Source of the DNA: Thalassobaculum sp. OXR-137
GTDB taxonomy: Bacteria; Pseudomonadota; Alphaproteobacteria; Thalassobaculales; Thalassobaculaceae
Length of the DNA stretch: 64,000 bases
Reading direction: 5' to 3'
Assembly: GCF_034377285.1 (NCBI RefSeq)
Contig: NZ_CP139715.1
Span: 3,952,001 to 4,016,000 of the forward strand
Shown: positions 1 to 11,055 of the stretch, one piece after another
Numbering within the stretch: position 1 is the stretch's first letter
Layout: every line of letters begins with the position of its first letter
The notes under the pieces: generated by a model
Told to the model about the DNA's origin: nothing
Database searches by the model: none
Seen by the model: the letters and a program-made list of their open reading frames with translations, nothing else
Position numbers and translations under genes: made by a program

Positions 1-351
1 CATGGTCTCGGGGCCGCTCTGTCGCTCGCGCGGGAAGCAGGGGGGACAATCGTTTTCCTGCCAGAGAAGCCCACCCCGTTGCTGACACGCCGGTTCGGGG
101 ACCAGGTCGCAACCTGGTTGGTCTCGACTTACGGCACCGGTCCGGTTGCCATACCGCTTGGCCCCTACGCCCGCGATCGCGTGCGTGCCGAGAAATTGCG
201 GCAGGCGATTATCAACGGAGAGGGCAGTGCGTCCGATCTCGCCCGGCGTTTCGGCATTGCCGCACGCACGGTGAAACGGCATCGTGCGAAAGCTCGAGAG
301 CAGGATGACGATCTTCCGCTTCTTGCCGGCCTCTCCCAAGATCAGGACTAG
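1..351 (+). CDS. Mor/C-family late transcription activator (5' end cut off)
   Basis: The reading frame is open at the window edge, so only about the last 116 residues are seen. They contain the GG-x5-P segment typical of the Mor/C beta strand (AREAGGTIVFLPEK, residues about 11-24 of the visible part) and a C-terminal helix-turn-helix (SDLARRFGIAARTVKRH). Mu Mor and C are dimeric activators of middle and late promoters. The position directly before the lysis genes is that of Mu C. A palindrome starts 8 bases after the stop codon and recurs before the protease gene, so this protein is the natural candidate to bind both. The family match is by pattern only. Confidence 0.75.
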   Translation, partial: HGLGAALSLAREAGGTIVFLPEKPTPLLTRRFGDQVATWLVSTYGTGPVAIPLGPYARDRVRAEKLRQAIINGEGSASDLARRFGIAARTVKRHRAKAREQDDDLPLLAGLSQDQD

Positions 352-358
352 AGAACGG

Positions 359-382
359 CCATGGTGACAGGTGTCACCATGG
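359..382. promoter_or_regulatory. Palindromic operator, candidate late promoter Plys
   Basis: Arms CCATGGTGACA and TGTCACCATGG flank a 2-base centre (GG). The core ATGGTGACAGGTGTCACCAT (361-380) is repeated exactly at 8166-8185 before the head protease gene. In Mu, C binds dyads at Plys, PI, PP and Pmom; these two sites match Plys and PI in location. By analogy, transcription would start about 40 bases downstream of the centre. Function is inferred. Confidence 0.7.
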
Positions 383-386
383 GTTT

Positions 387-448
387 GTGACCGAGCATCG
401 GTCACGCTTCGAACGTGAGCGGGGCATAGCCCCGCGCCCTACGTTCGA
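387..448 (+). promoter_or_regulatory. Structured leader of the lysis operon
   Basis: Two strong hairpins lie between the operator and the endolysin start. The first is GTGACCGA/TCGGTCAC with a 3-base loop (387-405). The second has outer arms TCGAACGT/ACGTTCGA (409-416, 441-448) around an inner stem GCGGGGC/GCCCCGC (419-435). The second ends at the AGGAA ribosome site of the endolysin (start 458), so it could limit ribosome access or protect the mRNA end. Confidence 0.5.
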
Positions 449-457
449 GGAACCGCG

Positions 458-889
458 ATGTCCTTAGCCCTGCCCGATCCGAAGTCGTCCGTCATCCCGG
501 ACTGGCAATGGAAGAACTTCACGCCCGACGAGTTGCGGTGCAAGTACACCGGTCTGCTGGTCGTGGTTCCGGACTTCATGGACAAGCTGCAGACGCTCCG
601 TGAGATCCTGGGCTTTCCGTTCATCATCAGCTCGGGCTACCGCCACCGCACGCATCCGGCCGAGCGCAACAAGGCGCAGCCGGGGACGCATGCCTACGGC
701 CGGGCCGTAGACATCCAGGTCTACGGCGTCCGGGCTCTGGCGATCGTCGAGCAGGCGCGCGCCTTCGGCTTCACCGGCATCGGCGTGTCCCAGCCCAATG
801 GCAGCGACGGACCGCGCTTCGTGCACCTCGACGACATGACCGCGGCCGAGGGCTACCACGCCCCGCGCCCGGCGCTCTGGACCTACTGA
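458..889 (+). CDS. Endolysin, peptidase M15 family
   Basis: The product (143 aa) is a small zinc carboxypeptidase/endopeptidase of the M15 (Peptidase_M15_3) type that would cut peptide cross-links of peptidoglycan at lysis. The family pattern is complete: SGYR at 59-62, zinc ligands His78 and Asp85 in GTHAYGRAVDI, and His123 in FVHLDD. There is no signal peptide, so export would depend on a holin. It is the first gene after the late-promoter-like palindrome, with AGGAA placed 6 bases before the ATG, and is followed 12 bases later by a membrane protein. Mu-like phages often carry such a peptidase in place of a lysozyme. Confidence 0.88.
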   Translation: MSLALPDPKSSVIPDWQWKNFTPDELRCKYTGLLVVVPDFMDKLQTLREILGFPFIISSGYRHRTHPAERNKAQPGTHAYGRAVDIQVYGVRALAIVEQARAFGFTGIGVSQPNGSDGPRFVHLDDMTAAEGYHAPRPALWTY

Positions 890-901
890 GGAGACCGAGC
901 A

Positions 902-1516
902 GTGAACGACGTGAAGAAGCACTGGATCCCGGAACGCAAGTTCCTCGCCGCCGGGCTGTCCGGCATCGCCACCTGGCTGCTGACGCTGGTCCTGGCCGCC
1001 GTCGGCGTGGATGTCCCCACCGAGATCCAGACGGCCGCGGTCGGCCTGGTCATGGGAGCGGTGCACTATTTCGTGCCGCCGGCCGCCCTGGACATCCTGC
1101 GGCGCATCGACAGCGACCTGAAGTCGACCTTCAAGGTACCCGGCGACGCGGTGACGAAGGTGGCGCTGATGTTCCTGCTGCTGGGCGGGCTCGCCTTCGG
1201 CGGACCGGTCGCCTGCGGCACCTACGCGGTCTACAAGGCCGAGGCCGCTACGCCCGCCCAGGCGGTCTACGCCGTCCAGTCGGACTACAACGCCGCCCTA
1301 TCCTCGGCGGCCGAGCTGATCGAGAGCGGGCTGATCAGCGAGGACCAGGTGCAGACCATCCGGCGCCTGGACAACGCGGCCTACGAGGCGCTGAAGCGCG
1401 CCCAGGTCGCGGTGCGCCGAGGGCACGATCCGACCGTGGAGGCGGCCGTGTCCCTCGCCCGCTCGGCCGTCGCCGAGCTTGCCGTCTATCTCGCACGCCA
1501 GGAGACGGGCCGATGA
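902..1516 (+). CDS. Phage membrane protein, candidate holin/lysis accessory protein
   Basis: The gene starts at GTG behind GAGGAG. The 204-aa product has three hydrophobic stretches at about 14-36, 43-60 and 86-108, followed by a helical soluble C-terminal half (about 115-204) rich in Ala, Glu and Arg. Position next to the endolysin and the multi-pass N-terminus suggest a holin with a large C-terminal tail. The GPVAC sequence near 101-105 is not a convincing lipobox, so a spanin lipoprotein is less likely. I do not recognise a named family. The stop overlaps the start of the next gene (ATGA). Confidence 0.72.
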   Translation: MNDVKKHWIPERKFLAAGLSGIATWLLTLVLAAVGVDVPTEIQTAAVGLVMGAVHYFVPPAALDILRRIDSDLKSTFKVPGDAVTKVALMFLLLGGLAFGGPVACGTYAVYKAEAATPAQAVYAVQSDYNAALSSAAELIESGLISEDQVQTIRRLDNAAYEALKRAQVAVRRGHDPTVEAAVSLARSAVAELAVYLARQETGR

Positions 1517-1710
1517 ACGCGTCCATGATCCTGATCGGGATCCAGATCGCCGACGCGATCGCCGCGGGCATCCCGAACGCGATCGCCGCGAAGCGGGCGA
1601 TCGAGCGCATGGTGGCCGAGAACCGCGACCCGACTGATGCCGAGTGGGCGGACATCAACGCTGTCACCGACGAGCTGCGGGCCAAGCTGCATGGGGACGG
1701 CAGTGCCTGA
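1513..1710 (+). CDS. Small phage protein of unknown function
   Basis: A 65-aa protein whose ATG overlaps the previous stop by four bases. The N-terminal 25 residues are hydrophobic and alanine/isoleucine-rich (MNASMILIGIQIADAIAAGI), the rest a charged helix. It could be a second lysis-related membrane peptide. Tight packing in the lysis block is the main support that it is real. Confidence 0.6.
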   Translation: MNASMILIGIQIADAIAAGIPNAIAAKRAIERMVAENRDPTDAEWADINAVTDELRAKLHGDGSA

Positions 1711-1909
1711 TTTCGCCGACCAGGCCAGCGAGTACGAAGAGGCTGCGCGCGCTTCCGCTGTGAGGCGCGCGCTCTCCGTGCCGAAAGGCGACGGTCGGAC
1801 CCACTGCATCGACTGCGGGGAGGAGATTCCGGAGGCACGTCGAGCGGCCGATCCGGGCGCGGTCACCTGTATCGATTGCCAACGTGACCGGGAGCGCGCG
1901 ACACGATGA
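1703..1909 (+). CDS. TraR/DksA-type C4 zinc-finger protein
   Basis: The product (68 aa from the GTG at 1703) ends with a four-cysteine zinc finger, CIDC at 35-38 and CIDC at 56-59, spaced as in TraR/DksA proteins that enter the RNA polymerase secondary channel. Small TraR-like proteins are common in the Mu late region between lysis genes and gp25. GTG 1703 is preceded by GGGGA; an ATG at 1691 in the same frame is the alternative start. The stop overlaps the next start. Confidence 0.75.
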   Translation: MPDFADQASEYEEAARASAVRRALSVPKGDGRTHCIDCGEEIPEARRAADPGAVTCIDCQRDRERATR

Positions 1910-2310
1910 TCGAGCTGGTTAAAGAGCTTAACGCGTGGGCCGGCCTGCTGTCGGTCGTCGGGATCGCGATGGTTTCCATCGCGATGCTGTATCTGCGAAG
2001 CGTGTTCGCTCCGCGCTCCGACCTGGAACTGGAAGTCGCGGCCAGGGACGAAGCGGCCAAGAAGGTGGTCGACCGAGTGGAGAAGCTGGAGCGAGCAGTC
2101 GATCGGCTCGAGCAGCGGGCGGCCACCGCGCCGACACAGACCGATCTGCAGAACATCGTGATCTCGATCGAGTCGTTTCGAGGCGACGTCAAGGCCATGG
2201 CGTCGGAGGTGACCGGTCTCGATCGGGAGCTTCGCCAGATCGGCCGGAAGGTCGACATGCTTGTCGAGAACGAGATCAAGGGCGCACAGAGCCAGAGGGT
2301 CAGCACATGA
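1906..2310 (+). CDS. DUF2730 protein, Mu gp25-like
   Basis: A 134-aa protein with one transmembrane helix at about 11-31 and a long charged helical region at 40-125 that looks like a coiled coil. This architecture and its place before the gp26-gp27-gp28 genes match the DUF2730 family of Mu-like phages (Mu gp25), whose role is unknown but which resembles an inner-membrane spanin subunit. Overlaps neighbours by four bases on both sides. Confidence 0.75.
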   Translation: MIELVKELNAWAGLLSVVGIAMVSIAMLYLRSVFAPRSDLELEVAARDEAAKKVVDRVEKLERAVDRLEQRAATAPTQTDLQNIVISIESFRGDVKAMASEVTGLDRELRQIGRKVDMLVENEIKGAQSQRVST

Positions 2311-2612
2311 GCATCCAGGACATGCTGCGCGAGGAGCTGCGGCTGACGATCATCGTGACCCTCAACGAGGTACCTGGCCAGAGCGCCTACGAGGGCCTGC
2401 TGCAGGAAGCGATCGCGCGCTATCACAACCAGTTTCCGACCCGCGCCGAGCTTCAGGCAGAGCTGATCTGGCTTCGCGACGCCGGCCTGCTCACGATCGC
2501 CGAGCATCCGCAGCCGGGTCGTGTGAGCTACACGGCCACCCTGACGGCGCGTGGCGAAGCGACCGCCACCGGGCGGCTCAAGACCGCCGGCGTGCGTCGC
2601 CCGAACGCGTAG
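2307..2612 (+). CDS. Mu gp26-like (VpaChn25_0724-type) protein, winged-helix-like
   Basis: The 101-aa product has a helical N-terminus followed by a segment like a small winged helix: the TRAELQAELIWLRDAGLLTI helices and a beta hairpin ending in LTARGE. Such proteins sit directly upstream of the small terminase in Mu-like phages. A DNA-binding or packaging accessory role is inferred from fold pattern and location. The start at 2307 overlaps the previous stop; longer frames starting upstream overlap the previous gene and are not credible. Confidence 0.72.
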   Translation: MSIQDMLREELRLTIIVTLNEVPGQSAYEGLLQEAIARYHNQFPTRAELQAELIWLRDAGLLTIAEHPQPGRVSYTATLTARGEATATGRLKTAGVRRPNA

Positions 2613-2620
2613 CGCTCCAC

Positions 2621-3196
2621 ATGAGAAAGCGCGGCCCGAAGAGCAAGATCGAGAAGCTGGATCCGGCCATCAAAGCCGAGATCGACCGGCTTCTGCACGT
2701 CGAAGGGCGCACGATCGACGACGTCGTTGAGTTCCTCCAGACGCTCAAGCTGGATGACACACCGTCGCGCGGTTCGGTCGCGCGATACAGCGCCACGACA
2801 GCCAAGATGCGCGGCGACATGGACCGAATGCAGTCTGTGACGTCTCAGCTGGCTAAAGAGTTCGGCGACCAGGACAACGACGCCGCCCGCTTCCTTATGC
2901 AGATCGCGCAGACCATCGCCTTCAAGCTGATGGACAAACACGCCGGCGCCGACAACGTCCTCGAGGTCGAGGAGTTCATGCTCCTGATGAAGGGCATGAA
3001 GGACATGGCCTCCGCGCGCAAGACCACGCTCGATGCCGAGGAGAAGGTCCTCGCCAAGCTGAAGCGCGAGGCCGCCAAGCTGTTCGACCAGGCGCAGCGA
3101 GACGCCCAATCCGCGGGTGAAGGAAAGGGCCTGTCGGCCGAGCGCCTGGCGCAGCTCCGCCGCGACATTCTCGGCGTCCGGGTCCAGGCCACATGA
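2621..3196 (+). CDS. DUF3486 protein, Mu gp27-like terminase small subunit
   Basis: The 191-aa product has an N-terminal Arg/Lys-rich segment (MRKRGPKSKIEKL) and a helix-turn-helix-like region at about 14-55 (ID RLLHVEGRTIDDVVEFL, then PSRGSVARY), followed by long helices. This is the DUF3486 layout of Mu gp27, thought to be the DNA-recognising small terminase partner of gp28. The last four bases overlap the gp28 start, which fits a two-subunit packaging motor. Confidence 0.82.
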   Translation: MRKRGPKSKIEKLDPAIKAEIDRLLHVEGRTIDDVVEFLQTLKLDDTPSRGSVARYSATTAKMRGDMDRMQSVTSQLAKEFGDQDNDAARFLMQIAQTIAFKLMDKHAGADNVLEVEEFMLLMKGMKDMASARKTTLDAEEKVLAKLKREAAKLFDQAQRDAQSAGEGKGLSAERLAQLRRDILGVRVQAT

Positions 3197-4830
3197 GCGA
3201 GCAGCTCCCCACCGCGACCATGCCGCCACCGCGATCGCCGATCGACGATCTGCCCCTGGGAGTGCTGCCGCCAGACGATCTCGATCCTCTGGCGGACGGC
3301 ATTCTTATGGCCCACCAGGTGGAGTGGGTCTCCGACGAGTCCGACCTGAAGCTCGCCGAGAAGGGCCGCCGGACCGGCATCACCTTCGCCGAGGCCCTTG
3401 CGAGCACCTTGATCGGCGCGGCCAGCGCCTCGGCCGGAGGAGACAACACCTTCTACATCGGCGACACCAAGGAGAAGGGTCTGGAGTTCATCGGGACCTG
3501 CGCCAAGTTCGCGCGCAACGTCGCCGCCGAGTTGCTGTCCGTGGAGGACTTCCTGTTCGACGACGTCCAGGAGGACGGCAGCTCGAGGCAGATCCAGGCA
3601 TACCGGATCCGCTTCGCATCCGGTTTCCAGATCTGCGCTCTGTCGAGCCGGCCGGCCAACATCCGAGGCCTGCAGGGGCGCGTGATCATCGACGAGGCGG
3701 CGTTCCATCCGAACGTCCGCGGTGTGATCGACGCCTGCAACGCTCTGCTCATCTGGGGCGGCAAGATCCGGATCATCTCTACTCACAACGGCACGCTGAA
3801 CGCCTTCAACGAGCTGATCAAAGAGACCCGCGAGGGCCGGTACGACTACTCCATCCACCGCATTACGTTCGATGACGCGGTGGCCAACGGCCTCTACGAG
3901 CGGGTTTGTCTGCTGCGGAACTGGACGGCTTCGGCCGAGGGCAAGGCCGAGTGGTACCGCAAGGTCCGTCGGAGCTACGGCACGCGTGTCGATGCGATGC
4001 GGGAAGAACTGGACGCCGTTCCGCGGGAAGGCGACGGCGTGATGCTGCCCCTGGCTTGGATCGAGGCGTGCAGTATCGAGGACTATCGCGTCGCGCGCTG
4101 GGAGCCACCGGTTGAGGGGTTTGTTGACCTCCCCGAGGTTCAACGCCAGGCCGACATGCGCGCCTGGCTCGACGAGAACGTCGGCCCGCATCTAGAGGCT
4201 TTGAAGGATCTCCCGACGGCGATCGGTGAGGACTTCGCCATGCGCCAGGACCGGACCTGTATTGTCGTCGGCTACACAGCTCAGAACCTGGTGCGCCGAG
4301 CGCCGCTGGTGGTCGAGCTGCGGCAATGCCCCTACGACCAACAGAAGCAGGCGCTCTACTACATAGGGGCTCGGCTCAACCGGCTGCAGCGGATGGTCCT
4401 CGACGCCAATGGCAACGGCATGGTGCTGGCCCAGGAGGCTCGCCAGAAGTTCGGATCGAACCGGGTGACCGAGCTGATGGCCAACGACGCATGGTACCGA
4501 GAGAACACCCCGAAGTTCACGGCCGCTTTCCAAGATCGGACCATTTGGATCCCGGCCGATCGAGATGTCCGGGACGATCTGCGCCAGTTCCGAGTGGTCG
4601 GTGGTGTCGGCAAGATCCCGAGTGATATCCGCAACGAGGGCAGCGACGGTGGACGGCGGCACGGAGACGCCGGCCAGGCCCTGCTGCATTTCTATGTCGC
4701 GACGCTGACCGGGATCGTCGAGTTCGGATACGAGGCCGCGATCCCGATGCGTCGCCGGGTCGATGAATCACCCGCATATGGCACCGATGACGAAATGCCG
4801 GGCGCCCGGTTTGGACCAGGTGCCTGGTAG
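3193..4830 (+). CDS. Terminase large subunit, Mu gp28-like
   Basis: The 545-aa product is the ATP-driven DNA packaging motor and headful nuclease. Visible motifs: a deviant Walker A at about 57-65 (KGRRTGITF), Walker B VIIDEA at 164-169, and the coupling motif ISTHNG at 195-200. A C-terminal RNase H-like nuclease half follows, with acidic motifs around FAMRQDRTCIVVG and LDANGNG. Length agrees with Mu gp28. It works with the DUF3486 protein before it and the DUF935 portal after it. Confidence 0.9.
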   Translation: MSEQLPTATMPPPRSPIDDLPLGVLPPDDLDPLADGILMAHQVEWVSDESDLKLAEKGRRTGITFAEALASTLIGAASASAGGDNTFYIGDTKEKGLEFIGTCAKFARNVAAELLSVEDFLFDDVQEDGSSRQIQAYRIRFASGFQICALSSRPANIRGLQGRVIIDEAAFHPNVRGVIDACNALLIWGGKIRIISTHNGTLNAFNELIKETREGRYDYSIHRITFDDAVANGLYERVCLLRNWTASAEGKAEWYRKVRRSYGTRVDAMREELDAVPREGDGVMLPLAWIEACSIEDYRVARWEPPVEGFVDLPEVQRQADMRAWLDENVGPHLEALKDLPTAIGEDFAMRQDRTCIVVGYTAQNLVRRAPLVVELRQCPYDQQKQALYYIGARLNRLQRMVLDANGNGMVLAQEARQKFGSNRVTELMANDAWYRENTPKFTAAFQDRTIWIPADRDVRDDLRQFRVVGGVGKIPSDIRNEGSDGGRRHGDAGQALLHFYVATLTGIVEFGYEAAIPMRRRVDESPAYGTDDEMPGARFGPGAW

Positions 4831-4841
4831 GAGACGAGAGC

Positions 4842-6446
4842 ATGGCCAAGATCCCGACACTTGTTGGCCCGGACGGTGTGACGCCGCTACGCCGCGAGGT
4901 CCTTCTCGACGAGCTGGCCGGTCCGACCATGGCCGGTGTGCGCCGCCCGATCGGCGAGCACCCGTCGCGCGGCCTCACACCCGCCCGGCTCGGCACGATC
5001 CTGCGTGCCTCTGAGGAAGGCGACCCGGTCTCCTATCTCGAGCTGGCCGAGGACATCGAGGAGAAGGACCTCCACTACGTCGGCGTCCTTGGGGCGCGCA
5101 AGCGCGCCGTCGCCCAGCTCGAGATCACGGTGGAAGCGGCCGAGGACAAAGGCCCCTGGCAGGAGCACGCGGACTTCATTCGGGAATGGCTCCGCCGAGA
5201 CGAGCTGGAAGACGAGTTGTTCGACATGCTCGACGCGATCGGCAAGGGCTTCAGCGTTGTCGAGATCCTGTGGGAGACGAGCGAGAAACAGTGGTGGCCG
5301 AGGCGTCTGGAATGGCGGGATCCCCGGTGGTTCATGTTCGACCTGGTCGACCTTCGCACCATTCGGCTGCGCGACGACGCCGGTCAGCCTGTGCCTCTTG
5401 CGCCGTACAAGTTCATCACGTCGATCATCCAGGCCAAGTCCGGCCTGCCGATCCGCGGCGGTCTCGCCCGGCCGGTGTCGTGGGCCTGGCTGTTCAAAAA
5501 CTTCGGCCTGAAGGATTGGGTCTCGTTCCTGGAGACCTATGGTCAGCCGCTGCGGCTGGGCATGTATCCGAACGGATCCACGCCGGAAGACCGCCGGATG
5601 CTGCTGCGGGCCGTATCGCAGCTCGGTCACGACGCCGGCGGCATCATTCCCGACAGCATGAAGATCGACTTCGTTGAGTCGGCCTCGAAAGGCGACGGCG
5701 CCCTCTTCAGCAGCCTCGCGAACTTCCTGGATCAGCAGATCTCCAAGGCCGTGCTCGGTCAGGTGGGGACCACCGACGCGATCGCCGGCGGCTATGCGGT
5801 CGGCAAGGTTCACGACCAGGTGCGTCAGGATATCCAGCAGAGCGACGCCAAGCGCCTGGCGATCCCGATCAACCGGGACCTGGTCAAGCCGATGATCGAT
5901 CTGAATTTCGGCCCGCCGAAGGATGGCAAGTACCCTCGGGTCTTCATCGGCCTGCCCGACCAGACGGACATGGCCAAGCTGATGCCGCTGATCGAGAAGT
6001 ATGTCGACATGGGCGGCAAGGTCGGATCGTCCGTCGTCCGCGACAAGCTCGGCTTGCCGGATCCCGACAAGGACGAGGAGCTGCTGCAGCCCCGTCGGCG
6101 TGCCTCGCCGGGCGCACCGAACGAGAACCGAGATGGTGCGTCGGACCCGGAGCAGGACACGGCAACGGCCGCCGCCCAAGCGCGCGGCGATCGTGACGCC
6201 GTAACCGAGCTTGCCGACGAGGCGATTGACGACTGGCGCCCGATGGTCGAGCCGATCGTGGATCCGGTCCGCCAGCTGCTCGAGGACGTGACGAGCCTGG
6301 AGGAGCTGCGCGATCGCCTTCCGGAGCTGATCGAAGAGATGGAGCCCGACGAGGTCATCACCGTACTGGCCCAGGCCGGCTTTGCAGCACGACTGGCCGG
6401 TGAGGTCGACGCGCCGATCGACGACAGTTCCGACGCGGGTGCCTGA
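4842..6446 (+). CDS. Portal protein, DUF935 family (Mu gp29-like)
   Basis: The 534-aa product belongs to the DUF935 portal family: the N-terminal PTLVGPDG/LRREVL region, the central DWVSFLETYGQPLRLGMYP segment and the QISKAVLGQ block with its Q/G-rich follow-on are typical. It forms the dodecameric ring at the capsid vertex through which DNA enters. The last 120 residues are acidic and low in complexity, as often seen in this family. A clear GGAGACGAGAGC ribosome site precedes the ATG. Confidence 0.9.
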   Translation: MAKIPTLVGPDGVTPLRREVLLDELAGPTMAGVRRPIGEHPSRGLTPARLGTILRASEEGDPVSYLELAEDIEEKDLHYVGVLGARKRAVAQLEITVEAAEDKGPWQEHADFIREWLRRDELEDELFDMLDAIGKGFSVVEILWETSEKQWWPRRLEWRDPRWFMFDLVDLRTIRLRDDAGQPVPLAPYKFITSIIQAKSGLPIRGGLARPVSWAWLFKNFGLKDWVSFLETYGQPLRLGMYPNGSTPEDRRMLLRAVSQLGHDAGGIIPDSMKIDFVESASKGDGALFSSLANFLDQQISKAVLGQVGTTDAIAGGYAVGKVHDQVRQDIQQSDAKRLAIPINRDLVKPMIDLNFGPPKDGKYPRVFIGLPDQTDMAKLMPLIEKYVDMGGKVGSSVVRDKLGLPDPDKDEELLQPRRRASPGAPNENRDGASDPEQDTATAAAQARGDRDAVTELADEAIDDWRPMVEPIVDPVRQLLEDVTSLEELRDRLPELIEEMEPDEVITVLAQAGFAARLAGEVDAPIDDSSDAGA

Positions 6447-6449
6447 TCG

Positions 6450-7676
6450 ATGCCCGCGCTCGAATTGAAACCGCTTCCGCCGCGCGAGGCGGTCGACTAC
6501 TTCCGCTCGAAGGGCTTCAAGGTGGGCTTTGCCTGGCAGGACGTCTGGCAGAGCGAGCACGCCCGGTACTTCACCGTAGCCAAGGCGATGCAGCTAGACA
6601 TCCTTGAGGACATCCGCGGCGCCGTCGACCAGGCGCTTGCCGACGGCACCACCTTCGCTCAGTTCCGCGAGGGCCTGGAGCCACTGCTGCAGGCCAAGGG
6701 ATGGTGGGGCCGGCAGCGCGTAACCGACCCGGTCACTGGCGAGGAGCGCCTGGCGCAGCTCGGCAGCCCGCGACGGCTGAAGACGATCTTCGACGTGAAT
6801 CTCCGAACCTCATATGCGGCCGGCCGTTGGGAGCAGATCCAGCGCACCAAGCGGCTACGGCCCTATCTGCGGTACGTCGCCGTCGATGATGATCGCACCC
6901 GGCCGGAACATCAGGCCTGGCACGGTACCGTGCTCCCCGTCGACGACGCCTGGTGGTCGACCCACTACCCGCCCAACGGCTGGAACTGTCGTTGCACCGT
7001 GCGCCAGCTCTCGGCGAGAGAGGCCGAGCGGCTCGGCGGCGTGAGTGAAGCACCCGTCTTGAGGGAACGCCGGTGGGAAAACCAGCGGACCGGCGAGATC
7101 CAGAATGTGCCAGCCGGGATCGATCCGGGATGGAACTACCATGTCGGGCTCGCTGCCGACGCCGTCCGACGCGACGCGACCCTGGAGCAGGGCCTGTCGT
7201 CCGGCGCCACCCGCGCGCTGCTGGACAAGCTCGCCGGCGCCCGCCCGGATATCGCCCATGCGGCCCTGCGTGACGTTGTGCGATCGCCGGACTTCGCCCG
7301 CCAGCTGACGAAGCCGACCGTGCCCATGCCGGTCATGCGCCTGCCGCCGGCGGTAGCCGAAGAGATCGGCGCCAGGTCGCCGATCGCCGTTCTGTCGCCC
7401 GAGAGCTTGACGAAGAACCTCCGCCAGCATCCCGACCTGACCCCGGCTCAGTACCGGCAGCTGCCCGAGCTGGGCGCGGCGCCCTCCCTGATCGTCCAGG
7501 ATCGTGACGTGTCGGTGGTGATCGTCCGGCGGCAGGACGGCCCGCTTATGGCGGCGGTCAAGGCGACGGACACGGGAGCCGCGACCTATGTGACGTCGTT
7601 CCGGCGGACCAACTCGGCCGATATCCGCCGGCTGATCCAGCGAGGTCGCATTCTGTTTGGATCCTGGGAGGAGTAG
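6450..7676 (+). CDS. Minor head protein MuF (gp30, SPP1 gp7-like) with C-terminal PBECR-like domain
   Basis: Residues 1-190 form the phage head morphogenesis (MuF) domain; the signature DDDRTRPEHQAWHG and HYPPNGWNCRC lies at 146-182. After a linker, residues about 300-408 form a second domain (LSPESLTKNLRQHPDLT, then YVTSFRR). It resembles the BECR-fold nucleases (PBECR families) often fused to MuF or portal proteins. In such polymorphic MuF proteins the C-terminal domain is an effector packaged with the virion. Here the usual KH of that motif reads KN, so activity is uncertain. The MuF assignment is strong; the toxin-domain assignment is tentative. Confidence 0.88.
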   Translation: MPALELKPLPPREAVDYFRSKGFKVGFAWQDVWQSEHARYFTVAKAMQLDILEDIRGAVDQALADGTTFAQFREGLEPLLQAKGWWGRQRVTDPVTGEERLAQLGSPRRLKTIFDVNLRTSYAAGRWEQIQRTKRLRPYLRYVAVDDDRTRPEHQAWHGTVLPVDDAWWSTHYPPNGWNCRCTVRQLSAREAERLGGVSEAPVLRERRWENQRTGEIQNVPAGIDPGWNYHVGLAADAVRRDATLEQGLSSGATRALLDKLAGARPDIAHAALRDVVRSPDFARQLTKPTVPMPVMRLPPAVAEEIGARSPIAVLSPESLTKNLRQHPDLTPAQYRQLPELGAAPSLIVQDRDVSVVIVRRQDGPLMAAVKATDTGAATYVTSFRRTNSADIRRLIQRGRILFGSWEE

Positions 7677-8165
7677 ACGGCGCGCGGCGGGGCCTCCCAT
7701 GAACCCCGCATTGCGCTCCCGTCTTCGTTACCGAGGACGGTGCTACGGCCGGGAGAGTTTCACCGTGTCGCGCGCGCCGCTCCTATCAGGTAGGCTCGCC
7801 ATGAAATCCAGTCAAGCAATGGCTGAACGACACCACCGATCGGATCGAAGCGCGTTTAAGGTCGTTTAAATTCCAGTGATCGCTCCTCTGGAACAGACAG
7901 CCACCGCGCAAGGCGAGGCGCTAGGAAGCCCCAGGACGGCCGAGATCGCTCTGAGACCCCCGGTGATGCCCTGAAATCCCTTAAACGATTTTTAAACGGC
8001 CTGGAGCGCCTCCCAGGCCCATTCGGGAGTAGCTCGGCGGACTGTCTCTTGCCCGCGCACCCCGAAACCACCATGCTGGGGCCAGTTCGGGGGACTGATC
8101 CAGTCGACCGACCGGGCCTGAAGCCCCACCGAACCGCTTCCCGACCTTCCGTTTAATCGCTCCCC
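7677..8165. other. 490-bp gap without a convincing gene, with CGTTTAA clusters
   Basis: No frame here has both a plausible start site and a phage-like product. The gap holds direct repeats of CGTTTAA about one helical turn apart at 7853 and 7863, the reverse pair TTAAACG at 7981 and 7992, and one copy at 8150. A hairpin GGCCTGG/CCAGGCC (7998-8004, 8013-8019) could end the upstream transcript. It lies between gp30 and the protease gene, where Mu carries the PI promoter. Confidence 0.6.
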
Positions 8166-8186
8166 ATGGTGACAGGTGTCACCATG
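8164..8186. promoter_or_regulatory. Palindromic operator, candidate late promoter PI
   Basis: A second exact copy of the dyad at 361-380; identity extends to 23 bases (CCATGGTGACA, GG, TGTCACCATG). It lies about 35-55 bases before the protease start. In Mu the C-dependent promoter PI drives gene I onward, so the parallel is close. If spacing is as in Mu, transcription would begin near 8219, leaving almost no 5' leader for a start at 8221. Confidence 0.7.
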
Positions 8187-8220
8187 TTTTCGGGCTGGTG
8201 GCGGCTCCACCATGCTCTCC

Positions 8221-9300
8221 ATGAGCAAGAAGGTCACAGACCCCACGCGCCACGAAACCGGTATGGGCGCGGTTATTCAGCTTCCGGATCCGGTCGCCGG
8301 CGTTGCGCCCGAGTGGATCCAGCTGATGCCGCTCGGCCTCATTCAGCCGCGCGACGGACGCCCGCCGTATGAGCTAACCGACACCGCCTCGGTGATCGCG
8401 ACCTCGATCTCGGCGGCCCGTGGCCTGGATCTCCCGATCGACTACGACCACCAGATCGACCTGTCGGCCGTCAAAGGCGTCGGCGGCACGGCCCGCGCCG
8501 CGGGCTGGATCAAAGAGCTTGCCGAGCGGGCCGATGGCATCTGGGGACGCGTCGAGTGGACCGCTGCTGCGGCCCAGGCGATCGCGGCCAAAGAGTATCG
8601 CTTCATCTCCCCGGTCTTCGACTACACGAAGGAAGGCCGGCAGATCGTCCGGCTGCGCCATGCAGCGCTGACGAACAATCCCGCCTTCGTCATGACCGCC
8701 CTTTCCCACCAGCAGCAGCACAAGGAGGTCCAGGTGGACCCGTTCCTGAAAGCATTGCTTGAGGCGCTGGGCCTCAAGGAGGACACCGACCAGGCGACCG
8801 CCCTGGCGCATGTTCAGAAGCTCTCCAGCTCGACGGCGATCGTCACTGCGATGGCCAGCAAGCTCGGCGTGAAGGACACGACCGAGACGGCCCTCGCCGC
8901 TGCGATCGACGAGGCGCGGAAGTCGACCGCGCCCGACCCGTCCAAGTTCGTGCCGATCGAACAGGTCACCGAGCTGCAGACCTCCCTGGCTTCGATCCAG
9001 AAGGAGCTGTCGACCGACAAGGCGACCGCGGCCGTCGATGCGGCGGTGAAGGCCGGGAAGGTCTCGCCGGCGCTGAAGGAATGGGCGACCGCCTACGCCT
9101 CCCAGGATCTCGCCGGCTTCAAGGCCTGGTCGGAGAAGGCGCCGGTGGTTACCGGCACCTCGGGCCTCGCCGCTCAGCCCCAGAAGGGCGAGGACGGGCT
9201 CTCCGAGATCGACCGCGCGATCGCGTCCCAGATGGGCGTGCCGCTCGAGGACTTCAAAAAGACCCGCCAGGCAGAGCTTGGCGTGCAGGCGGAGGGCTGA
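8221..9300 (+). CDS. Head maturation protease with scaffold domain, Mu gpI/Z-like
   Basis: The 359-aa product matches the Mu I protease family: the N-terminal domain (about 15-165) carries the QLMPLGLIQPRDGRP and LPIDYDHQ motifs and the RFISPVFDY and AALTNNPAF blocks. The C-terminal half is an Ala/Glu/Lys-rich helical scaffold. A perfect AAGGAGGT at 8722-8729 stands 5 bases before an in-frame GTG at 8734 (residue 172), a likely separate start for the scaffold, as for Mu gpZ. Candidate N-termini are ATG 8212, 8221 and 8263; none has a strong ribosome site, so the exact start is uncertain. Confidence 0.88.
   Translation: MSKKVTDPTRHETGMGAVIQLPDPVAGVAPEWIQLMPLGLIQPRDGRPPYELTDTASVIATSISAARGLDLPIDYDHQIDLSAVKGVGGTARAAGWIKELAERADGIWGRVEWTAAAAQAIAAKEYRFISPVFDYTKEGRQIVRLRHAALTNNPAFVMTALSHQQQHKEVQVDPFLKALLEALGLKEDTDQATALAHVQKLSSSTAIVTAMASKLGVKDTTETALAAAIDEARKSTAPDPSKFVPIEQVTELQTSLASIQKELSTDKATAAVDAAVKAGKVSPALKEWATAYASQDLAGFKAWSEKAPVVTGTSGLAAQPQKGEDGLSEIDRAIASQMGVPLEDFKKTRQAELGVQAEG
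8734..9300 (+). CDS. Internally started scaffold protein (gpZ-like)
   Basis: A 188-aa product in the same frame as the protease, from GTG 8734 behind AAGGAGGT with 5-base spacing. This is the strongest Shine-Dalgarno near either end of the gene. Mu makes its scaffold Z from an internal start in gene I in the same way. The predicted protein is the helical C-terminal part only, suited to an internal capsid scaffold. Independent expression is inferred. Confidence 0.55.
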   Translation: MDPFLKALLEALGLKEDTDQATALAHVQKLSSSTAIVTAMASKLGVKDTTETALAAAIDEARKSTAPDPSKFVPIEQVTELQTSLASIQKELSTDKATAAVDAAVKAGKVSPALKEWATAYASQDLAGFKAWSEKAPVVTGTSGLAAQPQKGEDGLSEIDRAIASQMGVPLEDFKKTRQAELGVQAEG

Positions 9301-9303
9301 TCC

Positions 9304-10143
9304 ATGACGGCGCTGACCGGAGATCGCAACACGCCCGAGCGTTCGGGCGAACTGGTGGTGCTGCTGGTCGCGGCCGCCACCACCATCCATGCCGGCTCCC
9401 TGGTGGTCCTGAACGGCGGCTATGCCGAGCCGGGCTCGACCGCCACCGGGCTGATCGCCGTCGGCCGGGCCGAGGAGCAGGTCGACAACAGCCTCGGGGC
9501 CAACGGCGCGAAGTCGGTGAAGGTGAAGCGCGGCGTCTTCCAGTACGCCAACAGCGAAGGCGGCGACGCGATCACGGCCGCCAACATCCACAGTGCCTGC
9601 TACATCGTCGATGATCAGACGGTGGCCAAGACGTCGGACACCGGCGCCCGGTCGCGGGCTGGACGGATTATCGACGTCGATACCCGCGGGGTGTGGGTCC
9701 TGGTCGGCAACGGTCCGTTCGACAGCGATGCCGGCGCACTGCTCGACCAGAACAATCTGGACGACGTCGACGACGCGGCTACGGCGCGGGCGAACATCGG
9801 CGCCAACCAGGTGGTGCTCTCCGTCCCGGATGCCGCCGCTCTCGACGGCACCGACCCGATCCGGATCGTGAGCCCCGTCGCGGGGATGATCACCAGCATC
9901 CGTTCGGTGATCGACGGCGCCCTGACCACCGGCAACGCCACGCTGACGGCCGCCATCGGCGCGACGCCCGTCACCAACGGCGTGATCACGATCACTCAGG
10001 CGGGCTCCGCCGCCGGTGACGCGGACAGCGCCACGCCCTCGGCCGCCAACGTGGTGGCCGCCGGCGATGTCATCACCATCACGCCGGGTGGCACCAACGA
10101 CGCGGCGCGGACCGCGGCGGTCACCCTGCTGATCGAAACCTGA
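9304..10143 (+). CDS. Probable capsid decoration (cement) protein
   Basis: The 279-aa product lies between protease and major capsid genes, as decoration proteins do. Residues 1-130 are beta-rich with the pattern of head-decoration proteins: LIAVGRAEEQVDN, then VKVKRGVFQYAN. A second, Thr/Ala/Gly-rich beta domain from about 160 (DPIRIVSPVAGMITSI and onward) resembles an immunoglobulin-like or receptor-facing display domain. The family call rests on position and composition, not on a clear motif. Confidence 0.62.
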   Translation: MTALTGDRNTPERSGELVVLLVAAATTIHAGSLVVLNGGYAEPGSTATGLIAVGRAEEQVDNSLGANGAKSVKVKRGVFQYANSEGGDAITAANIHSACYIVDDQTVAKTSDTGARSRAGRIIDVDTRGVWVLVGNGPFDSDAGALLDQNNLDDVDDAATARANIGANQVVLSVPDAAALDGTDPIRIVSPVAGMITSIRSVIDGALTTGNATLTAAIGATPVTNGVITITQAGSAAGDADSATPSAANVVAAGDVITITPGGTNDAARTAAVTLLIET

Positions 10144-10158
10144 GCCCCGGAGGCACCC

Positions 10159-11055
10159 TTGGAAGTCAATCGCGCATCGCTGGCTGGGATCAACACCAGC
10201 TTCAACACGATCTTCAACGGCGCCCTGGGCGGCGTCGAGACGACCTGGAACAAGATCGCCATGGAAGTCCCCTCGACCACCCGCGAGAACGACTATCGCT
10301 GGCTCGCCAAGCTGCAGGGCATGCGGCGGTGGGTTGGCGACCGTGTCATCAACAACGTGGCCAAGGATGGCTACAAGGTCGAGAACGAAGCGTTCGAGAA
10401 CACGATCGGCGTAGATCGCGATGACATCGAGGACGATCAGATCGGGGTCTACAACCCGTTGGTCGCCGACCTGGGTCAGACGGCGGCCGAGCACCCGGAC
10501 TTTCTGGTCTGGAACCTGCTGAAGTCCGGCTTCACTGAGGCCTGCTACGACGGCCAGTATTTCTTCGACACAGACCACCCGGTGATCGGCGAGAACGGCG
10601 ACGAGCAGAGTGTTTCCAATTTCCAGGGCGGCGCCGGCACCGCCTGGTTCCTGTTGGACACCACGCGGGCGATCAAGCCGCTCATCTTCCAGATGCGCCG
10701 CCGGGCGCAGCTCACAGCGCTGATCAACAACACCGACCCGAACGTCTTCATGGCGAAGCAGTTCGTGTGGGGTGTGGACATGCGCTGCGCTGCCGGGTTC
10801 GGGCTCTGGCAGCTGGCCTATGCGTCGAAGCAGACGCTCAACTCCGAGAACTACTTCGCCGCCCGCGCCGCCATGATGTCCATGACCGGCGACCATGGCC
10901 GCCAGCTGCGGCTGCGCCCGAACCTGCTGGTCGTGCCGCCGAGCCTGGAGAAGAAGGCTCTGGAGGTCCTGAAGGCCGAGCGTGACGCGGCCGGTGCGAC
11001 CAACGTGGCCCAGGGCACGGCCATGCACCACGTCGAACAGTTGCTGGCGGCCTGA
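10159..11055 (+). CDS. Major capsid protein, Mu gpT-like
   Basis: The 298-aa product fits the Mu gpT major head subunit family. The conserved N-terminus (INTSFNTIFNGAL), the Y-x-W-L block (DYRWLAKLQGMRRWVGDR) and YDGQYFFDTDHPVI are all present, and length agrees with gpT (about 300 aa). The start is TTG at 10159 with GGAGG five bases upstream; no ATG is usable without losing the conserved N-terminus. The protein should have the HK97 fold and be assembled on the scaffold encoded upstream. Confidence 0.9.
   Translation: MEVNRASLAGINTSFNTIFNGALGGVETTWNKIAMEVPSTTRENDYRWLAKLQGMRRWVGDRVINNVAKDGYKVENEAFENTIGVDRDDIEDDQIGVYNPLVADLGQTAAEHPDFLVWNLLKSGFTEACYDGQYFFDTDHPVIGENGDEQSVSNFQGGAGTAWFLLDTTRAIKPLIFQMRRRAQLTALINNTDPNVFMAKQFVWGVDMRCAAGFGLWQLAYASKQTLNSENYFAARAAMMSMTGDHGRQLRLRPNLLVVPPSLEKKALEVLKAERDAAGATNVAQGTAMHHVEQLLAA

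Follow-up and report, generated by a model that had tools for sequence, protein, structure and literature searches.

Paired identical dyads beside a Mor/C-type gene and before the head operon of a Mu-like prophage as candidate operators of one late activator

Why does a prophage carry the same long inverted repeat, base for base, at two distant places among its late genes? The question is raised by the first kilobases of a 64,000-nucleotide stretch of DNA from Thalassobaculum sp. OXR-137 (hereafter the window), in which the exact 20-mer ATGGTGACAGGTGTCACCAT lies at 361-380 and 8166-8185. A first-pass annotation had reported these two places and no other, with an identity running to 23 bases, and both statements hold. 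There is no third place in the window, allowing up to 3 mismatches adds only the opposite-strand matches at these two positions, and the two copies agree over 23 bp (359-381 and 8164-8186). A chance origin of the pair is ruled out by 100 dinucleotide-preserving shuffles, in which the 20-mer had 0 matches. The symmetry of the first site is 11-2-11, CCATGGTGACA GG TGTCACCATGG, and that of the second is 10-2-10. The features referred to below are as follows.

1-351, + strand: 3' part of the Mor/C-type late activator gene (PHROG 836, Pfam Mor; full protein 134 aa)
359-381, no strand assigned: site 1 dyad (centre 370.5), candidate operator for activation of the lysis/packaging operon
403-408, + strand: predicted -10 of site 1, CACGCT (start near 415, placed by taking the last T as -7)
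458-889, + strand: endolysin (Peptidase M15)
902-1516, + strand: holin-like protein (PHROG 9284, E 3e-6)
2621-3196, + strand: gp27-like terminase small subunit
3193-4830, + strand: terminase large subunit
4842-6446, + strand: portal protein
6450-7676, + strand: gpF-like minor head protein, the gene that precedes site 2
8164-8186, no strand assigned: site 2 dyad (centre 8175.5), identical to site 1, candidate operator for activation of the head operon
8208-8213, + strand: predicted -10 of site 2, CACCAT (start near 8220, placed by taking the last T as -7)
8221-9300, + strand: head maturation protease gpI, ATG at predicted +2 (alternative in-frame ATG at 8263)
10159-11055, + strand: major head protein gpT, downstream in the head operon

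The search of the full prophage that the annotation had proposed was extended to the whole genome (5,646,840 bases, up to 3 mismatches). The 20-mer occurs at 4 places, two in each of two prophages, with a spacing of 7,805 bp between the dyads in both and no third dyad in either. The inner 16 bp, GGTGACANNTGTCACC, mark the same 4 genome places and no further place at 1 mismatch. Many copies in host intergenic DNA, against which the annotation had staked its reading, were sought across the 5.65 Mb genome with up to 3 mismatches, and none was found in host DNA; a general host motif is ruled out, as all 4 copies lie inside two near-identical prophages. The second prophage lies on the same chromosome (genome C1, about 367508-405000), inverted relative to the window prophage, and the two are 99.7% identical over 33.85 kb and 98.7% identical over a further 3.1 kb. 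A second near-identical copy in one chromosome is expected of a transposing phage. We note that the early region of the second prophage departs from that of the window prophage in a few stretches. In a search of 35 further genomes from the same order, the exact dyad was not found.

The gene in front of site 1 starts 54 bases before the window, and its stop codon ends at 351, 7 bases before the 23-mer and 9 before the 20-mer. The annotation had called it Mor/C-type, which stands, and had put it 8 bases before the first copy, which does not. The part inside the window matches PHROG 836, "late transcriptional activator", with E 5e-11, and the genome contains two matches to this family, one per prophage. 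The full protein passes the Pfam Mor model (PF08765) narrowly, with 26.4 bits against a cut-off of 24.9, and a genome-wide search with PF08765 returned 0 matches at E 0.01. For a profile built from 12 such activators, the best sequence match among solved structures is Mu Mor (1rr7, E 3.6e-4). Judged by its sequence, the gene ending at 351 is a member of the Mor family. The predicted model of the 116-residue window part ends in two helices, 77-84 and 88-102 (pLDDT 85, pTM 0.52). Foldseek gives a weak comparison with this model: no match has E below 0.3, and Mu Mor 1rr7 ranks 19 with E 0.73. The helix-turn-helix of the model superposes on that of the serine recombinase 2r0q over 39 columns at 0.9 Å, but with E 0.83. 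With the window activator as query, no relatives were found in IMG/VR or in phage records.

Site 1 lies between the Mor/C-type gene and the endolysin gene that begins at 458, and site 2 lies between the genes for gpF and protease gpI. The gene order of Mu has the endolysin gene behind C, and gene I behind F and G; the places of the two sites therefore match those of Plys and PI, as the annotation had claimed. About 490 bp between gpF and site 2 (7677-8163) hold no clear gene or Rfam match, and there is no Rfam match anywhere in window 1-9600. Behind site 1, window 387-435 contains two more inverted repeats, GTGACCGA/TCGGTCAC and GCGGGGC/GCCCCGC, which overlap the predicted -10 and leader and are partly kept in G417, a contig described below. 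A structured RNA leader before the endolysin gene is unsupported (z -0.9).

The related-phage search that had also been proposed shows that the exact dyad recurs outside the window's genome and that the same layout occurs elsewhere with other dyads. A scan of IMG/VR for ATGGTGACANNTGTCACCAT gave three contigs (G417, L010 and L012). In G417, an activator 55% identical to the window's is followed, after 7 bases, by GTGGTGACATGTGTCACCAC, which differs from the window dyad by one change per arm with the arms still complementary, and the exact window dyad lies 7.2 kb beyond this first site. The lysis and terminase genes of G417 are close relatives of those of the window prophage, and no homologues of the window portal, gpF, gpI or gpT were found in the G417 stretches examined (E 1e-3). 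Here the mark has persisted through a change of genes. In L010, a 35% identical activator, which scores below the Pfam Mor cut-off (22.1 bits), has the dyad 55 bases behind it. The exact dyad in L012 is tentatively taken as chance; the listed frames of this contig include no recognisable Mu-like late genes, and it seems unrelated.

PHROG 836 has matches in 40 of 385 genomes of the window's class, probably Alphaproteobacteria to judge from the named relatives, and the stretches behind the activators were fetched from these genomes, from IMG/VR and from GenBank phages. A script then looked for a dyad at most 300 bp behind the activator stop that recurs 2-14 kb further on. Of 37 stretches, 18 gave accepted pairs, all of which scored higher than the best of 10 mononucleotide shuffles, and in 17 of these the second copy lies 6.6-8.7 kb on. 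Four more stretches (L057, L067, L068 and L079) also beat 10 shuffles and were left out, their dyads being judged wrong, weak or gene-overlapping. In a second batch, 10 of 32 stretches were flagged, including the phages RcapMu, POA1180 and RR1-B, and in L127 and L129 the second copy is found at 11.6-11.8 kb. When a single threshold is applied throughout, 21 of 57 activator anchors pass the pair test, compared with 3 of 305 random anchors in the same stretches, two of which fall in the window's own stretch; this test omitted L010, L059, L068, L072, L073, L074, L119 and 5 more with less than 9.5 kb behind the activator. The dyads vary from phage to phage and match within one phage: that of L051 and L052 is CCCGACANNTGTCGGG, that of L049 GACCCTGACAATTGTCAGGGTC, that of L054 ATGCGGAACTGGTTCCGCAT, that of L056 CCCCTGAACTTGTTCAGGGG and that of RcapMu CCCCCGGACCTGTGTCCGGGGG. 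The pair search found no dyad pair in Mu or in four stretches from other classes (L141-L144), and no common dyad was seen behind the gene in 30 loci from other classes, which are too short to display a recurrence. The one accepted pair with a different spacing, L050, has dyads at 686 and 3119, about 2.4-2.5 kb apart, and an activator with Glu at the helix position called x3 below; its stretch has few matches to the window prophage's proteins and looks like another layout of the same switch.

What follows the dyads is also shared. For 38 sites, made up of the 18 accepted pairs with a single site from each of L010 and L067, an alignment anchored where the right core arm ends (TGTC in the window) has two conspicuous columns behind that arm: A at +29 in 35 of 38 sites and T at +33 in 34 of 38. 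With only one phage per activator cluster, both bases are present in 23 of 26 sites, while the next best offset reaches 3. We read nAnnnT at +28 to +33 as a probable -10 hexamer. With its last T taken as -7, the dyad centre falls at about -44.5, and transcripts are predicted to start at 415 and 8220; their distance of 35 bases downstream of the 20-mers is the lower limit of the 35-50 that the annotation had foreseen. In the later-fetched phages, the -10 rule holds exactly in 13 of 25 sites, where about 1 is expected; these sites come from 12 of the 32 second-batch sequences, namely the 10 flagged, L126 (below the flag) and L121 (hand-placed). Sites of the RcapMu type (L116, L117, L118 and L129, with L117 and L118 near-duplicates) mostly miss the rule by at least 1 base, and in RcapMu and POA1180, whose third site was placed by hand, the -10 is shifted by about 1 bp at some sites. 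A promoter scan found no sigma-70 type promoter at either window site, as would be expected were an activator required. A dyad at about -43.5, a -10 and no good -35, by which a late promoter of this kind is recognised, are all found from the sequence alone. At three head-operon sites (window 8208-8223, L113 5448-5463 and the second site of L067), the last T of the predicted -10 is followed by the ATG at a distance of exactly 8 bases, and the head transcript there may be leaderless. In POA1180, the annotated protease start (5452) would fall within its predicted -10.

The operator and the protein vary together. The motif R-x-V opens the last helix of the helix-turn-helix (residues 89-91, within helix 88-102 of the predicted model), and we call the two residues directly behind it x3 and x4 (R-x-V-x3-x4). 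They were compared with the half-site bases in 29 phages forming 19 clusters, which with L010 make 20; the half-site register came from a pattern built on the assumption of a TGTC- or GTTC-like core, and L122 fits this pattern badly. Of the 15 clusters whose half-site has G at base 2, 14 carry Arg at x4, and the sole exception is the poorly registered L122; the 5 clusters without that G all carry a residue other than Arg there. At x3, Glu goes with G at base 5 (4/4), Arg with C (6/8) or A (2/8), and Lys, Tyr, His or Phe with A (7/7); L122 has Ile with T. Over the 20 clusters, 0 of 100,000 permutations were as good for x3 and base 5, and p is 4e-4 for x4 and base 2, values that are too good because the clusters still share ancestry. 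In a scan over 36 columns, x3 and x4 ranked first. In the Hin recombinase, an arginine occupies the position equivalent to x4 and contacts a guanine.

The rule was then applied to activators outside its training set. The 49 proteins considered included 9 that already belonged to the code set, 11 that could not be parsed, 8 for which the rule gave no prediction, and L010, which had been used before. For the 20 that remain, a dyad of the predicted type lies behind 10 (L027, L072-L074, L079, L119-L121, L125 and L151), and the other 10 lack a dyad of whatever type. Among the ten with a dyad, L079 is related to L076/L081, and the RcapMu-like L119-L121, L125 and L151 matched a looser pattern; within its gene, L125 has one extra match of another type. 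The rule tells what a site looks like where there is one; it does not state that every activator is followed by a site.

Dyads that sit between operons could also serve to end the transcripts of the activator and gpF genes, as intrinsic terminators or RNA hairpins. The window sites would form stable RNA hairpins (z -2.6 and -2.8), and T-runs follow some dyads (RcapMu, L049, L053 and L056), but 4 or more T within the 8 bases behind the arm occur at only 12 of 38 sites. A terminator scan found none at either window site, where a hairpin with its T-run is absent, and its one match is on the opposite strand (7916-7901). This explanation also leaves the A and T at +29 and +33 and the helix covariation unaccounted for, and we regard it as improbable, while some sites could be both operator and terminator. 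Slightly less probable again is binding of the dyads by another regulator, of the phage or the host, for example a repressor of the late operons. A dyad by itself does not name its protein, but the first copy sits close behind the activator gene in phage after phage, the operator covaries with the recognition helix of that very activator, with x3 and x4 ahead of all other columns, and the -10 spacing is that of an activator upstream of a promoter. Linkers or recombination joints copied between module borders, where the dyads do lie and where the gene content of G417 has changed between operon 1 and the second dyad, are hardly credible, as the flanks of the two copies differ in most pairs except for the -10 bases and the G417 site has matching changes in both arms.

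Our results suggest that the dyad is the docking site of the phage's own late-gene activator, with a sequence that may be partly readable from the protein. The new activator-operator pair with both halves in view, which the annotation had proposed, gains support as a prediction from the recurring layout, the -10 distance and the helix covariation. Very probably, the dyads are operators of a single Mor/C-type late activator, a one-activator variant of the Mor/C switch of Mu with a long operator. Against this account count the later-fetched sites that miss the -10 rule, the 10 of 20 activators without a dyad, the missing pair in Mu and in L141-L144, the 3 random anchors that pass the pair test, the weak fold comparison and the silent genome-wide PF08765 search. 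Pairing within each phage, the fixed -10 distance and covariation with the activator were computed; binding, the dimer, activation and the starts are what we infer. The activator would be made in lytic growth and bind both dyads as a dimer, each helix-turn-helix reading one half-site, TGTCACCAT, read outward. The bound protein would replace the -35 element, the host RNA polymerase would use the weak -10 (CACGCT or CACCAT), and transcripts would start about 44 bp behind the dyad centre, from site 1 into the lysis/packaging operon and from site 2 into the head operon. Related phages would use other dyads, bases 2 and 5 following x4 and x3 of the recognition helix.

On balance, we also favour, with less assurance because half of the new activators to which the rule could be applied show no dyad, a wider reading in which a clade of Mu-like phages uses one Mor-type activator for its late genes, with the operator beside the activator's own gene and before the head operon and a specificity readable from two helix residues. 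If this is true, late regulons would have diverged into a large number of insulated activator-operator pairs, each predictable from sequence. Having many activators with operators at known places makes specificity, promoter geometry and the divergence of late regulons directly testable, and the layout offers a means of locating late promoters in phages whose transcripts have not been mapped. Mor and C are classic activators whose natural operators are known mainly from Mu; among open-licence papers, we found no description of the operators reported here.

Three named phages share the layout with dyads other than the window's: in RcapMu (Rhodobacter), POA1180 (Ochrobactrum) and RR1-B (Rhizobium), one copy of the dyad closely follows the annotated late activator and another precedes the gene for the head protease. 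A third copy in POA1180 (L113 19466), some 90 bp in front of the tail sheath gene, may mark a third late promoter. Mu itself, with C acting at Plys and PI, resembles the window in having a Mor-family protein whose gene stands directly before the endolysin gene, and its second late promoter precedes protease gene I, as site 2 does. According to PMC4461284, the late promoters of Mu have the activator site upstream of the -35 region, as is proposed for the window, and Mu has both Mor and C, with P and mom promoters besides, whereas in the window prophage one Mor-type gene was found, with two sites per prophage. At Pm, according to PMC4390567, Mor binds as a dimer to a dyad centred at -43.5, in a promoter with a -10 but no -35, which it replaces. 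The spacing from the dyad centre to the -10 at sites of the window type equals that at Pm within about 1 bp. The elements themselves differ: that of Mor consists of two 5-bp repeats around a 6-bp spacer and serves the middle operon, whereas the window type has arms of 10-11 bp around 2 bp and is placed before late operons.
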